64,000 nucleotides of DNA from Haloferax sp. Q22 (GTDB taxonomy: Archaea > Halobacteriota > Halobacteria > Halobacteriales > Haloferacaceae), in NCBI RefSeq assembly GCF_001482285.1, contig NZ_LOEP01000007.1:62001-126000 (forward strand), read 5' to 3'. Below the pieces are notes generated by a model, which worked only from the letters and a program-made list of their open reading frames with translations, made no database searches and had not been told where the DNA came from. A program made the position numbers and the translations under genes. Below, piece by piece: positions 32,733-63,943 of the stretch; position 1 is the stretch's first letter, and each line of letters starts with the position of its first letter.

Positions 32733-34037
32733 ATGTACTACGCCTACAAGTACCGTCTCAAGCCGTCCGACACCCACCGAGAGGAGTTGGACCGCCATCG
32801 AGACATTTGTAGGCAACTGTACAACCACGCTCTCTACCGCTTCGACCAAATTCCCGTGGACGCAGGCACGCTCAATCAGCGTGTTCGGTCCATCCGAGAC
32901 GAAATCCCGTCCCTGAAAGATTGGTGGACTGACCTCTCGGACGTGTACTCGACAGTTCTGCAAACAACGGTCATGCGAATCGAGCAGAACGTCAAAGGGC
33001 TCTCCAAGCTCAAGGATAATGGCTACGGCGTCGGTCAACTCACGTGGAAGCCGCCACGCGAGTTCCGCAGTTTCACGTACAGCCAGTCTGGCTTCAAGCT
33101 CGACAAGAAGGGCGGTCAGACTGTGCTGTCACTCTCGAAACTCGCGGACATACCGATTCGGCTCCACCGCGCTATCCCCGACGTTCACAAGAGCGACAGC
33201 TCTTGTGCAGCCCATCAGAAATCTCTGATTTCTGAGGACGACGCCACGCTCAAACAGGTCACGGTCAAGAAAGAACCGACGGGCGAGTGGTTCGCCACCT
33301 TCGGCGTCGAAATGGACCGCGAACCGCCCGCGAAGCCCAAGAATCCCGAGAAGTGTGTCGGTATCGACGTGGGGATTCTCACGTACGCCCACGACACCGA
33401 TGGAACGGCGGTCGGGTCGCTCGATCTCACCGACGAGCGTGACCGCTTGGAGCGCGAGCAACGGAAGCTCTCGCGGAAGCAACACGGGTCGAACAACTAC
33501 GAGACACAACAGCGGCGCGTAGCGGAGTGTCACGCCGCTCTCCGACGGAAGCGCCGCGACTTCCTGCACAAACTCTCGGCGTACTACGCTCGGGAGTACG
33601 ACCTCGTGGCGGTCGAAGACCTGAACGTGAAGGGGATGATGGAGTCGCCGTCGAACAGCCGCAACACCGCGTCTGCCGCGTGGCGAACGTTCCTCTCGTT
33701 GCTCGAATACAAGTGTGAGCGAGAGGGGACGCACTTCGTCGCGGTCAACCCGAGGGGGACGACCAAGGAGTGCGCGTCCTGTGGTGTCTCGACGGAGAAG
33801 CCGTTGTGGGTCCGTGAACACTCCTGTCCTGCCTGTGGGTTTGAGGCGGACAGGGACGCGAATGCGGCGTGGAACATTCTTTCTCGCGGCCTCGAAGATG
33901 TAGGAGTGGGACACTCCGAACAAACGCCTGTGGAGACTGCGCTCCCTGCGGATACCAATTCGGTGTCTGCAAAGCGCGTCGTGGAAGCAGGAAGCCCTAC
34001 CCTCAAGGAGCGAACGGCGTCAGCCGTGAGCGAGTAG
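32733..34037 (+). CDS. tnpB: RNA-guided nuclease TnpB (IS1341-type), apparently intact
   Basis: 434 residues. N-terminal WED/REC region (YAYKYRLKPSDTHREELDRH) and RuvC-like nuclease with acidic residues D212 (GIDVGIL), E295 (VAVEDLNV) and D375 (ADRDANAAWN). A zinc finger CASC...CPAC lies between the last two. All catalytic residues are present, so the protein could be an active omega-RNA-guided DNA nuclease. At about residues 151-170 the phrase PDVHKSDSSCAAHQKSLISE appears to be an extra in-frame insert: its DNA (33186-33235) is two adjacent perfect hairpins. The 3' end of the gene overlaps the predicted guide RNA scaffold. No tnpA is present. Confidence 0.93.
   Translation: MYYAYKYRLKPSDTHREELDRHRDICRQLYNHALYRFDQIPVDAGTLNQRVRSIRDEIPSLKDWWTDLSDVYSTVLQTTVMRIEQNVKGLSKLKDNGYGVGQLTWKPPREFRSFTYSQSGFKLDKKGGQTVLSLSKLADIPIRLHRAIPDVHKSDSSCAAHQKSLISEDDATLKQVTVKKEPTGEWFATFGVEMDREPPAKPKNPEKCVGIDVGILTYAHDTDGTAVGSLDLTDERDRLEREQRKLSRKQHGSNNYETQQRRVAECHAALRRKRRDFLHKLSAYYAREYDLVAVEDLNVKGMMESPSNSRNTASAAWRTFLSLLEYKCEREGTHFVAVNPRGTTKECASCGVSTEKPLWVREHSCPACGFEADRDANAAWNILSRGLEDVGVGHSEQTPVETALPADTNSVSAKRVVEAGSPTLKERTASAVSE
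33186..33235 (+). repeat. two adjacent perfect hairpins inserted in frame in tnpB
   Basis: Hairpin 1: CACAAGAGC/GCTCTTGTG (33186-33194 and 33199-33207, 4-nt loop). Hairpin 2: TCAGAAATC/GATTTCTGA (33215-33223 and 33227-33235, 3-nt loop). Both have perfect 9-bp arms, are 7 bp apart, and stay in the reading frame. Confidence 0.8.
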
Positions 34038-48987: not shown

Positions 48988-49833
48988 TCAGTCCTGTTTT
49001 TCCTTCCGCTCTCTCGTAATCATCGACTCGCGGATGTCCTGTAACCGCTCTGTGCCGCGGAGTTCGGACATGTTCACGCCGAGCGCGTCAGCGTCCTCGT
49101 CGGTGGCGACACCGCTCGTGAGGATGCTCCGGACGCCCTCCTCGACGGTCATGTCGATGTCGTACACGTCGTCGGCGGGAATGTAGGTGAGCAGGCCGCC
49201 GGTGACCGGGTTGGGCGCGAGCGGAAGGAACATCGAGACCATCTCCTTGTGGCCGGTCGACTGTTCGATAGTCGCGGGGGAACCACCCGTCTGGAAGCCC
49301 AGTACGTACACGTCGTCGTCGAAACACTGGACGAGTTTCACGTCCTGAAACTCGTCGGCCCCCTCGTCGAGGACCACGTCGCCCATGCGGCGGAAGCTCT
49401 TGTACACCGTGCCGACGCCGGGAATCGACGAGATGACGAGGTCGAACACGCCGATGATTTTCTCGCCGTACTGGTTGCGGCCGACGGTCCCCACGACCGC
49501 GACGATGGCGAAGAGGACGAGCAGGGCGACCAGTTCGGTGAAGAAGTCGACGACGAACGAGTAGATACCGAGGTCGATGAGGAGGCTGATGAATTCGACG
49601 CTCTCGAAGCGGCTGATGATTCCTGCCCAGCGCAGGAGTTCGATGAACGGTTCGAGGGCGTTTCTGACGAAGTCGATGCCGACGCGCAGGACGTACAGCG
49701 TGATGACGATGGGGATCATGATCGCCACGCCCGTCAGCAGGGTGTTGTACGCCCGTTCGTACAGCGATTGACCGGTCTCTTTGGCGCTCACGGCGAGCGT
49801 GCCCGGCGAGCGCGGAGGGTCTGCGGAGGACAC
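48988..49833 (-). CDS. DUF502 membrane protein
   Basis: 281 residues starting at GTG 49833, 28 nt downstream of a TATA-like tattttcac. Two hydrophobic helices (about 33-53, LTGVAIMIPIVITLYVLRVG, and 95-120, ELVALLVLFAIVAVVGTVGR) and the DUF502 blocks GVFDLVISSIPGVGTVYKSF and MVSMFLPLAPNPVTGGLLTY. Family role is not established; plant LCV-like homologues are membrane proteins. The C-terminal half is cytoplasmic and acidic with a charged tail (MITRERKEKQD). It is a single gene. Confidence 0.9.
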   Translation of the reverse strand: MSSADPPRSPGTLAVSAKETGQSLYERAYNTLLTGVAIMIPIVITLYVLRVGIDFVRNALEPFIELLRWAGIISRFESVEFISLLIDLGIYSFVVDFFTELVALLVLFAIVAVVGTVGRNQYGEKIIGVFDLVISSIPGVGTVYKSFRRMGDVVLDEGADEFQDVKLVQCFDDDVYVLGFQTGGSPATIEQSTGHKEMVSMFLPLAPNPVTGGLLTYIPADDVYDIDMTVEEGVRSILTSGVATDEDADALGVNMSELRGTERLQDIRESMITRERKEKQD

Positions 49834-60385: not shown

Positions 60386-63300
60386 GTGCTCGAACGGACG
60401 ACCGACGGCGTTCTCGCCGTTGACGACGAATGGCGCATCGAGTACGCGAACGAGCAGTTCACAGCGTGTCTCGGCCGCGACCCGGACGAACTCGTGGGGG
60501 CCGGGGTCTGGGAGGCGTTCCCGTCACTCCGTGGGACCGAACTGGAAGCCACGCTCCGAACGGCGATGGAACGCGGCGAAGCCGACTCGGTCGACCGCGC
60601 TCGCGGCACGCCCTTCGGCGAGCGCGTCGACCTACGCGTGTTCCCCGACGACGACGGCCTCACGGTGTTCTCGCGGGAGACTGCCCCCGACCGCGGTCAC
60701 GCCCGAGAACAGCGCCTCGACGCCAAGCGAAGCGAGACCATCATCGAACAGATTCACGACGTGGTGGTCATCCTCGACGCCGACGGAACCGTCCAGTTCG
60801 CCAACGCAGCGGCCGCTAGACTCCTCGGTGCGCCGAGCCCGTCGGCGCTGGTCGGGTCGTCGCTACGGACGCTCGTCGGCCGGCACGTCTCCGACGACGA
60901 CGCGGCCGACTTCGTGCAGGCGGTCGCAGACACGCTCGCCGCCGCCGAAAGCGACGGCGGGACCACGGGGCTGTACGACGCCGACCTCCAGGTCGACTTC
61001 ACCGACGGCGGCGGCATGCGGACGTTCGACGTTCGACTGACGCCGTTTCAGCGCGCGGGCGGGCGCAACGCGCTCGTCGTCGCCCGAGACGTGACCGAGC
61101 GGAGCGACGCCCAGCGGCAGTTGGAGCGCGAGCGCGACGCGCTGCGCGAACTCCAGACGGTGATGGCCGCCGAGGTGTCGTCACCCGACGAACGCCTCTC
61201 GAGTCTGGTCGCGGTCGGCTGTCGGACGCTCGGCCTCGACATCGGCATCGTCTCGCGCGTCGACGGCGAGGACTACACCGTCCGGGCGGTCCACCCGTCG
61301 GACGCCGGCATCGACGTCGGCGACCGCTTCGACCTCGGGTCGACGTACTGCAAGGAAGTGGTCAGCCAGCGCGAGGTGTGTGCGTTCACGGACGCCACGG
61401 CCGCGGAGATGACACAGCACCCCGCCTACCGCGAGTTCGCGCTGGAATCGTACATCGGGGTCCCGCTCGTCGTCGACGGCGAGCGCTACGGGACGCTCAA
61501 CTTCTCGAGTCCGACGCCGCGAGCGACGCCGTTCGGAACGCTCGAACACACGTTCGTCGAACTCCTGTCGGAACTCGTGAGCGCCGTGCTCTCGCGCAGC
61601 CGCGACCGGGCCGAACTCGAACGCCAGCAGTTCCTGTTCGACCGCGTCCAAGACATCGCGGACATCGGCATCTGGGAGTACGTCCCGGCGACCGGCGCGC
61701 TCGAATGGTCGGCCGGCGTCAGACGGATTCACGGCGTCGACCCGGACTACGACCCGGCGCTCGACGACGCCATCGACTTCTACCATCCGGACGATAGAGA
61801 CCAGATTTCGGCGGCCGTCACGGCGGCGGTCGAAGACGGCGAGCCGTTCGACCTCGACCTCAGGCTCGTCCGGACGGACGGCGAGGTGCGCGACGTTCGC
61901 GCGTGGGGCAACCCGGTCGACAACGACCACCACGACAACCGAGTCATCCGTGGCGTCTTCCAAGACGTCACCGAACACACCCAGCAGGCGCGCGTCCACC
62001 GAACGCTCGCCGAAGAGTACGAGGCCCTCCTCGACACGTCCGGCGACGCGATTTTCCTCGTCGATGTCGATGCAACCGGCGACAGCCCGAGCTTCGAGTT
62101 CGCCCGCCTCAGTTCCGGCTACGAGGAGGCGACGGAGCTGACGACCGACGACGTGCGGGGGAAGACACCGCAGGAGGTGTTCGGCGAAGAGCACGGCGCG
62201 AAGGTGGAGGCTAACTTCCGCCGCTGTGTCGAACGACGTGCCCCGATTTCGTACCGCGAGGAGCTTCCGCTCGGGGTCGACGCCCGCTTCTGGCAGACGG
62301 GGCTCGCGCCGGTCATCGTCGACGGCGACATCGTCAGAATCGTCGGCATCGCCCGCAACGTCACCTCGCAAGTCGAGCGGGAACGCGCGCTCGAAGCGAC
62401 GAACCACCGGCTCGAATCGCTCATCGAGGCCACGCCGCTCACCATCATGGAGTTCGACGCGGACGGCGAGGTCGCCCTCTGGAACCGGGGGGCAGAAGAG
62501 ATGTTCGGCTGGTCGCAAGACGAGGTCGTCGGCGGCCCGGTTCCCTTCGTCCCCGACGACAGCGCGGCCGAGTTCGAAACTCACCGACAGCGAGCGTTCC
62601 GGGGTGAGCGAATCCGCCGCAAAGAGGTCCGCCGCGAGACGAAAGCCGGCGAGCAGTTAGATCTCCTGTTGTCGGTCGTGCCGCTATCGGACGCCGACGG
62701 GGAGGTGACGAACGCGCTCGCCGTCCTCGAAGACATCACCGAGCAAAAGCAGTTAGAACGCGACCTGCGCGCGCTCCAGGCGACCGCCCAAGAGCTGAGT
62801 CGGGCGCAGACGGGCGACGAAATCGGCGACATCGCCGTCACCGCGGCGAGCGACATCCTCGGCTTCGAAGTCACCGGCATCTGGGAGTACGACGAGCGGG
62901 ACGACGCGCTGTTGCCGCTCGCCGAGACCGCGGCTGCACGCGACCTGTTCGGGTCGAGTCCGCGGTTGACCGCCGGCGGGAGTCTGGCGTGGCAGGCGTT
63001 CGAATCGGGCGAACCGCAGGTGTACGACGACGTGCCCTCACAGCCGGGGCTGTACAATCCGGAGACGGAGATTCACAGCGAGATGCAGATTCCGCTGGGG
63101 GAGTACGGCCTCATGCTGGCTAGCTCGCCGTCCACGGCCGCCTTCTCGGATACCGACGTCGACCTCTTTCGCATCCTGAGCGCGACCGTCGAGGCCGCGT
63201 TCGCCCGCGCGAGCCGCGAGGCGAAGCTCCAGCGGCAGAACGACCGCCTCGACAAGTTCGCGAGCGTCGTCGCGCACGACCTCCGGAACCCGCTCACCGT

Positions 63301-63943
63301 CGCCATCGGCTTCCGCGAACTCACACAGGAGACGGGCGACACGAGCTACCTGTCGAAAGTCGAGTCCGCACACGCCCGGATGGAGCAACTCATCGAGGAC
63401 CTCCTCACGCTCTCGCGGGGGTCGACGACCATCGAACAGCCGACGCAGATAGACCTCGCGGCGCTCGCGACCGAGGCGTGGGGCTACGTCGACACCGACG
63501 CGGCGACGCTCAGGACGGCCGACGGCCTCGGTGCCGTCGCCGGCGACCGCGGGCGACTGACGCAACTGTTCGAGAACCTGTTTCGGAATGCTGTCAAGCA
63601 CGGTTCCACGGGCAACCAGACCACGTCTGGTGACGCTGTCGAGCACGGCTCGACAGACCGCCGGACGCAGTCCGGCGACGCCGTGGAACACCGTGGCTGC
63701 ACCCTCACGGTGACCATCGGCCCCCTCGACGACGACGAGGGGTTCTACGTCGAAGACGACGGAGTCGGCATCCCAGAATCGCATCGCCGCGAGGTGTTCG
63801 ACCACGGCGTGACGTTCAGCGACACGGGAACCGGCTTCGGTCTCTCAATCGTCGACGATATCGCAAGCGTACACCGCTGGGAGGTTACCGTGACCGATGG
63901 CACCGACGGCGGTGCGCGCTTCGAGTTCCGGACGGGCCGGTGA
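60386..63943 (+). CDS. multi-PAS/GAF sensor histidine kinase
   Basis: 1185 residues from GTG 60386, in frame with the pseudo-receiver 15 bp upstream. Approximate domain order: PAS (1-110), PAS (115-235), GAF (245-400), PAS (405-530), PAS (530-665), PAS (670-790), GAF (795-945), HisKA with H964 (VVAHDLRNPL), and HATPase. HATPase N-box (NLFRNAVKHG), G1 (VEDDGVGIPE) and G2 (GTGFGLSIV) are present, so the kinase looks functional. The N-box is followed by a 30-residue insert of two 15-residue repeats (STGNQTTSGDAVEHG and STDRRTQSGDAVEHR) whose DNA folds into a cloverleaf. The signal and cognate regulator are unknown. If not restarted at GTG 60386, the stop upstream would silence it. Confidence 0.88.
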   Translation: MLERTTDGVLAVDDEWRIEYANEQFTACLGRDPDELVGAGVWEAFPSLRGTELEATLRTAMERGEADSVDRARGTPFGERVDLRVFPDDDGLTVFSRETAPDRGHAREQRLDAKRSETIIEQIHDVVVILDADGTVQFANAAAARLLGAPSPSALVGSSLRTLVGRHVSDDDAADFVQAVADTLAAAESDGGTTGLYDADLQVDFTDGGGMRTFDVRLTPFQRAGGRNALVVARDVTERSDAQRQLERERDALRELQTVMAAEVSSPDERLSSLVAVGCRTLGLDIGIVSRVDGEDYTVRAVHPSDAGIDVGDRFDLGSTYCKEVVSQREVCAFTDATAAEMTQHPAYREFALESYIGVPLVVDGERYGTLNFSSPTPRATPFGTLEHTFVELLSELVSAVLSRSRDRAELERQQFLFDRVQDIADIGIWEYVPATGALEWSAGVRRIHGVDPDYDPALDDAIDFYHPDDRDQISAAVTAAVEDGEPFDLDLRLVRTDGEVRDVRAWGNPVDNDHHDNRVIRGVFQDVTEHTQQARVHRTLAEEYEALLDTSGDAIFLVDVDATGDSPSFEFARLSSGYEEATELTTDDVRGKTPQEVFGEEHGAKVEANFRRCVERRAPISYREELPLGVDARFWQTGLAPVIVDGDIVRIVGIARNVTSQVERERALEATNHRLESLIEATPLTIMEFDADGEVALWNRGAEEMFGWSQDEVVGGPVPFVPDDSAAEFETHRQRAFRGERIRRKEVRRETKAGEQLDLLLSVVPLSDADGEVTNALAVLEDITEQKQLERDLRALQATAQELSRAQTGDEIGDIAVTAASDILGFEVTGIWEYDERDDALLPLAETAAARDLFGSSPRLTAGGSLAWQAFESGEPQVYDDVPSQPGLYNPETEIHSEMQIPLGEYGLMLASSPSTAAFSDTDVDLFRILSATVEAAFARASREAKLQRQNDRLDKFASVVAHDLRNPLTVAIGFRELTQETGDTSYLSKVESAHARMEQLIEDLLTLSRGSTTIEQPTQIDLAALATEAWGYVDTDAATLRTADGLGAVAGDRGRLTQLFENLFRNAVKHGSTGNQTTSGDAVEHGSTDRRTQSGDAVEHRGCTLTVTIGPLDDDEGFYVEDDGVGIPESHRREVFDHGVTFSDTGTGFGLSIVDDIASVHRWEVTVTDGTDGGARFEFRTGR
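63590..63679 (+). repeat. two 45-bp in-frame tandem repeats in the kinase gene
   Basis: Unit 1 is 63590-63634 and unit 2 is 63635-63679; a third partial unit begins at 63680. Each carries an internal hairpin (CCAGAC/GTCTGG, then CCGGAC/GTCCGG, a paired change). Together with an outer 9-bp stem they form a cloverleaf over 63603-63689. Confidence 0.85.

Follow-up and report, generated by a model that had tools for sequence, protein, structure and literature searches.

Why does a haloarchaeal histidine kinase carry, within its ATPase domain, a stretch of coding DNA that forms perfect hairpins? The question is raised by a locus in a 64,000-nucleotide stretch of the Haloferax sp. Q22 genome, referred to here as the window. 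We conclude, with a probability of about 0.8 for the full explanation including its inferred steps, that the feature is a palindromic coding element dispersed in the Halobacteriales, present at this locus in two head-to-tail copies.

Two palindromic units behind a kinase N-box

The array lies inside the HATPase_c domain of a PAS/GAF/HisKA/HATPase kinase, where a sequence-only reading of the same DNA had already placed the insert. Its parts, all on the plus strand, are:

60386 to 63943, plus strand: histidine kinase ORF hosting the array, with several PAS, two GAF, HisKA and HATPase_c
63572 to 63589, plus strand: N-box E-N-L-F-R-N
63590 to 63634, plus strand: unit 1, 45 nt, AVKHGSTGNQTTSGD, GAC at its end; H1 decayed, H2 intact
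63603 to 63611, plus strand: 3′ arm left over from the decayed unit 1 H1, GTTCCACGG, the 5′ side of the 'outer stem'
63615 to 63631, plus strand: H2 hairpin of unit 1, ACCAGAC-cac-GTCTGGT, 7 bp
63635 to 63679, plus strand: unit 2, 45 nt, AVEHGSTDRRTQSGD, GAC at its end; H1 and H2 both intact
63636 to 63656, plus strand: H1 hairpin of unit 2, CTGTCGAGC-acg-GCTCGACAG, 9 bp
63659 to 63677, plus strand: H2 hairpin of unit 2, CGCCGGAC-gca-GTCCGGCG, 8 bp
63680 to 63694, plus strand: AVEHR, the host N-box tail 3′ of the array, where the domain resumes
63681 to 63689, plus strand: CCGTGGAAC in the N-box copy behind the array, the 3′ side of the 'outer stem'

The translation reads ENLFRN-AVKHGSTGNQTTSGD-AVEHGSTDRRTQSGD-AVEHRG, with two 15-residue units after the N-box asparagine. 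The codon of this last N-box Asn, immediately 5′ of the array, is the target codon; it is AAT in the window and AAC in relatives, and the residue (N120) is invariant in the kinase alignment (A3). In unit 1, H1 has decayed on its 5′ side, where the arm now reads GTCAAGC.

The three perfect hairpins with 3-nt loops described in the sequence-only reading were recovered with the same coordinates and arms. That reading had further proposed an outer stem, which would close them into a cloverleaf. Both arms of this stem are present, but they do not form a designed helix: leftover arms at the array edges cross-pair, the orphan 3′ arm of unit 1 H1 with the 5′ arm that belongs to the N-box copy downstream of the array. 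Because arrays elsewhere are rows of hairpins, the cloverleaf is incidental and finds no support as a functional unit; the feature is made of two 45-bp two-hairpin units, and unit number is variable.

The folding energy of the window array was better than that of 200 out of 200 dinucleotide shuffles, both as RNA (z −4.8) and as DNA (z −5.9). In the predicted structure of the window kinase (23-sequence alignment, mean pLDDT 73), the only kinase modelled, insert residues 125-157 form a low-confidence loop (pLDDT <50) between the N-box helix (107-125) and the next strand (159-165). From this model we infer that the loop position may make kinase insertion nearly neutral. Two other long perfect hairpins occur in the window, at 49330-49356 (11 bp) and 33215-33235 (9 bp), and their sequence is unrelated to the element.

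Kinase arrays differ in unit number

Searching the own genome with the insert gave 12 matches including weak scores, of which five score strongly and lie in open frames, and matches were found in 68 of 98 related genomes at a lenient cut-off. About 150 distinct insert-bearing kinase N-box regions were collected across the order Halobacteriales, kinases being the most frequent hosts. The recurrence of the protein repeat in other haloarchaeal kinases, stated in the sequence-only reading, was thus correct.

The N-box DNA AAC-AGC/GCC-GTG-GAA-CAC-GG encodes N-S/A-V-E-H-G, and the left end of the unit is often AGC/GCC-GTG-GAA-C. Since the left end matches the N-box sequence, insertion behind the Asn codon restores the motif. 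We infer that the kinase N-box is preferred because of this match, which leaves the N-box intact.

Close orthologs of the window kinase contain two units (own genome), three units (H. marisrubri, L254/L283) or none (L255), the empty ortholog reading NAVEHG directly followed by GRDITVTVG. Among 16 kinase pairs with upstream flanks at least 95% identical, 10 show length differences of 45 to 180 nt, always a multiple of 45. Neighbouring units within arrays were no more similar than random draws. A regular alternation of neighbouring arm types, apparent in Haloferax arrays, was considered and discarded, being indistinguishable from random overall. Some arrays contain near-identical neighbouring units (L190, L192, L037). 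Local duplication and recombination between paralogs could alone explain part of the kinase array dynamics. In the L115 kinase, the ORF frameshifts within the array (NAVEHGSTGIVHR and onwards to a stop) and the remainder continues in another frame; a gene can be broken by array decay.

Copies in unrelated genes and exact empty sites

A covariance model of the 45-nt unit was searched in genomes of the genus Haloferax and across the order Halobacteriales. In-frame copies were found in some 27 unrelated genes, in addition to intergenic arrays and an IS end, and 48 of the 58 copies examined lie outside kinase N-boxes. Pfam assignments of the hosts include class I aminoacyl-tRNA synthetases, ETF, aminotransferase, nitrite/sulfite reductase, molybdopterin oxidoreductase, P-type ATPase (HAD domain), AMP-binding enzymes, radical SAM, SDR, TrpA, Gfo/Idh, V-ATPase subunits E and I, PIN, tRNA splicing endonuclease and metallophosphatase. 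The idea of a kinase-only element was rejected on the basis of these unrelated hosts. The element is restricted to the order: in a 295-genome sample of its own phylum, to which the model search was confined, the sole match outside Halobacteriales was borderline (E about 0.001). Spread by viruses was considered and set aside, as a core pattern had no match in viral contigs.

Exact empty sites were found in relatives at five non-kinase sites. The ValRS gene is occupied in one of 14 Haloferax genomes; the remaining 13 have a gene shorter by 45 nt. ETF-beta and HisC show a 45-nt occupied/empty difference among Halobacterium relatives, and a 45-nt difference also separates occupied and empty forms of a GluRS/GlnRS-type host (L468). 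In the acyl-CoA synthetase the difference is 48 nt, corresponding to one kinase-type unit (EDAVEHGSTTPRSQTH), and a relative is empty. In ValRS and acyl-CoA synthetase the element resembles its host sequence, which blurs the boundaries. At a non-coding site behind tnpB, CAAC is followed by the 45-nt insert and GACGACTGG, versus CAAC directly joined to GACGGC in the empty form; the insert is 48 nt long in one genome.

The sequence-only reading had suggested a mobile or self-templating in-frame palindromic element. This suggestion is supported by the exact empty sites, by the unrelated hosts, and by the stem covariation and inverted loops described below; the insert was found both after many kinase N-boxes and in unrelated proteins, with occupied and empty orthologs in either class. 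Copies in unrelated host genes with empty sites, present in multiple numbers and also intergenic, meet the description of an in-frame palindromic coding element like the selfish Rickettsia palindromic elements (RPEs). That the element is mobile is supported by comparison between genomes and stays an inference, no new insertion having been observed within a strain.

The P-type ATPase site is occupied in two genera (L469, L492), with stems that differ and are perfectly paired, and other Haloferax genomes are without the insert; either independent insertion or gene transfer could account for this. In one genome, the two-hairpin unit is nested at three places (L450, L451, L452) within an intergenic repeat that is larger, some 150-200 bp, and ends in GCAAAAGGTCGGT.

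Architecture, reading frame and target of the unit

The unit stands behind RAC and consists of H1 (7-9 bp stem, 3-nt loop), a spacer that is usually GCA, H2 (7 bp, 3-nt loop) and a terminal GAC. Unit periods in kinase arrays are 45, 48 and 51 nt. Three inner hairpin types were distinguished, namely 7-3-7, 10-3-10 (51-nt units) and a 6-bp stem with the conserved 10-nt loop TCGCAGGCTC (48-nt units). In the 48-nt subtype (L176, L183, L199-L202 and others) the stem is variable and covarying, and the loop strongly conserved. Some kinase arrays (L146, L148, L151, L153) contain a third insert type, DVHQTESDAAHQ..SEDAVEHG. Loops also occur inverted, giving VEPCST instead of VEHGST, or GGT versus ACC within one array.

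Coding copies are nearly always read in one frame, yielding a hydrophilic loop rich in S, G, D, E, R and T (for example STGNQTTSGDAVEHG). By inspection, the canonical unit has no stop in any of its six frames. A single frame is nevertheless used by 25 of 27 clearly coding copies, versus an expectation of about 36%, the share of RAC triplets in matching phase on both strands of the window kinase gene; other frames and orientations are therefore likely selected against.

Where insertion boundaries are clear, they always follow GAC or AAC, and the insert itself ends in GAC (CAC in L468). Usually there is no target duplication beyond the RAC/GAC triplet. As the element ends in the triplet behind which it inserts, its terminal GAC would recreate the target in each copy, from which we infer how head-to-tail arrays arise.

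Possible routes of movement

No mobilising enzyme was identified, and single-strand transposition, template switching and ectopic recombination all remain possible. The unit might be a minimal, PATE-like element of the IS200/IS605 type, in which H1 and H2 are the left- and right-end hairpins and a Y1 TnpA moves the single-stranded unit to the 3′ side of RAC. Consistent with this, the unit has two structured ends, and the PATE hallmark of insertion 3′ of a short fixed target without long target duplication is met (blurred in ValRS and acyl-CoA synthetase). Copies are also inserted at the ends of tnpB elements, and PMC3119063 provides a precedent in Haloquadratum, 52-bp terminal-only PATEs derived from IS605-type transposons. 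The second hallmark, a Y1 TnpA in element-bearing genomes, is not met: PF01797 (Y1) is absent from the Haloferax genomes G001, G004, G010 and G013 despite 8-24 model matches. G010 has the highest number of copies of all; G009 has three Y1 genes and no element. Moreover, where the unit occurs in IS ends, it has been added by insertion and does not form the end itself. We consider this route possible but doubtful. IS200/IS605 ends as the source of the element were rejected, since the copy near tnpB had inserted into the IS end and Y1 does not track the copies. In several genera, tnpB (RNA-guided endonuclease) elements have copies of the 45-nt unit at their 3′ end (L487, L490, L491, L582); this 3′ region normally yields the guide RNA, which copies there could alter.

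Alternatively, no transposition would be involved at all, and units would spread by template switching together with ectopic recombination or gene conversion, acting between paralogs and between sites of microhomology (GAC, GAGGAC, GACAGCGAGGA). Such a process would fit the 3-12 nt of microhomology that flank several sites, the exchange of arrays between kinases, the inverted loops and the similarity of the ValRS site to the left end of the element. However, the ETF-beta, HisC and IS sites share little beyond RAC and yet hold exact 45-nt two-hairpin copies, which leaves this explanation conceivable but rather unlikely.

Pairing is enforced at the DNA level

In 153 insert-bearing kinase N-box regions we counted 439 perfect hairpins (stem of at least 6), compared with 105 ± 9.5 (maximum 126) when synonymous codons were resampled. 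Given this excess, the pairing is no by-product of the amino-acid sequence, and codon repetition, which would have undermined the sequence-only reading, is ruled out as its whole cause. The pattern GTNGARCAYGGNTCNAC fixes the peptide VEHGST and leaves pairing free at synonymous positions. Among the 150 listed matches to this pattern, the Val/Ser third bases were paired in 81% (43% expected) and the Glu/Gly third bases in 80% (48% expected), with mutual information of 0.59 and 0.44, respectively, as opposed to at most 0.08 for unpaired combinations. The stem covariation is accordingly strong and includes synonymous third codon positions.

When 123 unfiltered 45-nt segments were analysed, nine of the ten strongest column pairs were stem pairs; the exception, 0-44, represents the same codon in neighbouring units. 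A set of 36 sequences, mildly filtered for pairing, contained 102 pairing-preserving double changes versus 33 in shuffles, and a shifted register abolished pairing. The non-kinase copies came from a model that rewards pairing, so that their pairing rate is biased upward, while the diversity of pair types is unaffected.

A structured RNA had also been put forward; it would be a cis-regulatory or small RNA within the kinase mRNA, selected for folding. The very stable predicted fold and the strong covariation would suit it. RNA structure would tolerate G-U pairs; among mismatched stem cells, however, G-T (48 seen, 197 expected) was as depleted as A-C (57 seen, 203 expected). As G-T is no commoner than A-C, pairing is enforced at the level of DNA and not of RNA. 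In addition, unit number differs between close orthologs, the hosts are unrelated, an Rfam search gave no match above or near the gathering threshold, and ARAGORN found no tRNA gene. We consider a structured RNA very improbable. A non-mobile alternative, in which replication slippage duplicates the N-box locally in tandem and pairing merely follows from repeated codons, could account for the near-identical neighbours in some arrays but is refuted as sole explanation by the non-kinase copies, and deserves hardly any weight. Synonymous resampling yields four-fold fewer hairpins, units next to each other are no more similar than randomly drawn ones, and the unit sits in unrelated genes for which empty sites exist.

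Template switching between inverted repeats produces homogenised arms and inverted spacers, according to PMC8604942 (see also PMC8794818). Homogenised arms and inverted loops are these two products, from which we infer the process in the haloarchaeal element. Hairpin-templated replication would copy one arm onto the other and sometimes invert the loop, so that palindromy is kept. The symmetry is thus probably kept by replication template switching, an inference that has not been demonstrated. Once formed behind RAC, arrays would gain, lose and exchange units. We further infer that this is most likely a selfish element whose effect is nearly neutral. A more specific scheme, in which host replication machinery alone copies the 45-nt two-hairpin unit, repairs it to perfect symmetry, inverts it and re-inserts it behind RAC, driven by DNA structure and free of a transposase, with N-box mimicry leading to kinase colonisation and continuing loop variants, is unlikely as a whole and should be read as a speculation.

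Relation to known elements

The kind of element is known from RPEs, intragenic REPs, PARCELs and PATEs/SMRs; new are the architecture, the target rule, the arrays and the host range. Like RPEs and the intragenic CGTC/GTAG REPs (PMC3733652), the haloarchaeal element is a short dispersed palindrome found inside unrelated protein genes and between genes. CGTC REPs lack a dedicated transposase and have an 8-9 bp stem, a 4-5 nt loop and a CCA-like tail (PMC3733652). GAC follows H2 in most haloarchaeal copies, and 31 of 43 non-kinase copies have G at position 45. Read from the opposite strand, GTC (CGTC where G follows) stands in front of H2, which might correspond to the unpaired CGTC tag at one stem foot of these REPs. 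In contrast to CGTC REPs, H2 has a 7-bp stem and a 3-nt loop, then TGC on that strand, and no CCA tail. The haloarchaeal element further differs from RPEs and REPs in its two different hairpins in fixed head-to-tail order, its RAC/GAC boundaries, the long arrays that it forms head to tail within a single protein site, and its occurrence in an archaeal order.

In-frame palindromic elements in archaeal proteins have a precedent in Methanocaldococcus jannaschii, according to PMC2996958, which cites it. PARCELs (Mollicutes and others; PMC2996958) are likewise tandem, palindromic, protein-coding repeats across many genes. Unlike the haloarchaeal unit, they are 75-nt amphipathic repeats of imperfect symmetry in genes for membrane proteins and proteins of unknown function, and not single insertions into housekeeping enzymes (PMC2996958). 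The PATEs and SMRs of Haloquadratum are also haloarchaeal, transposase-free, without target duplication, and associated with palindromes or inserted in those of IS605-type ends. They differ in that SMRs are about 80-110 bp long and bear terminal inverted repeats, the ends of PATEs are IS605-like, and the available sections of PMC3119063, on which this comparison rests, do not describe either as in-frame protein insertions. In the open-access literature we found no description of the repeat peptides or of a haloarchaeal in-frame palindrome; subscription papers were outside the scope, so this is no proof of absence.

In-frame palindromic coding elements are now extended to an order of archaea in which laboratory genetics is well developed (Haloferax) and which offers clean pairs of empty and occupied genes, a defined target and a countable array. 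A question left open for REPs and RPEs, how such elements move without a transposase and keep perfect symmetry, becomes testable in a laboratory organism. The element also calls for caution, as insertions in haloarchaeal enzymes, tRNA synthetases included, can be young DNA elements and not functional domains.
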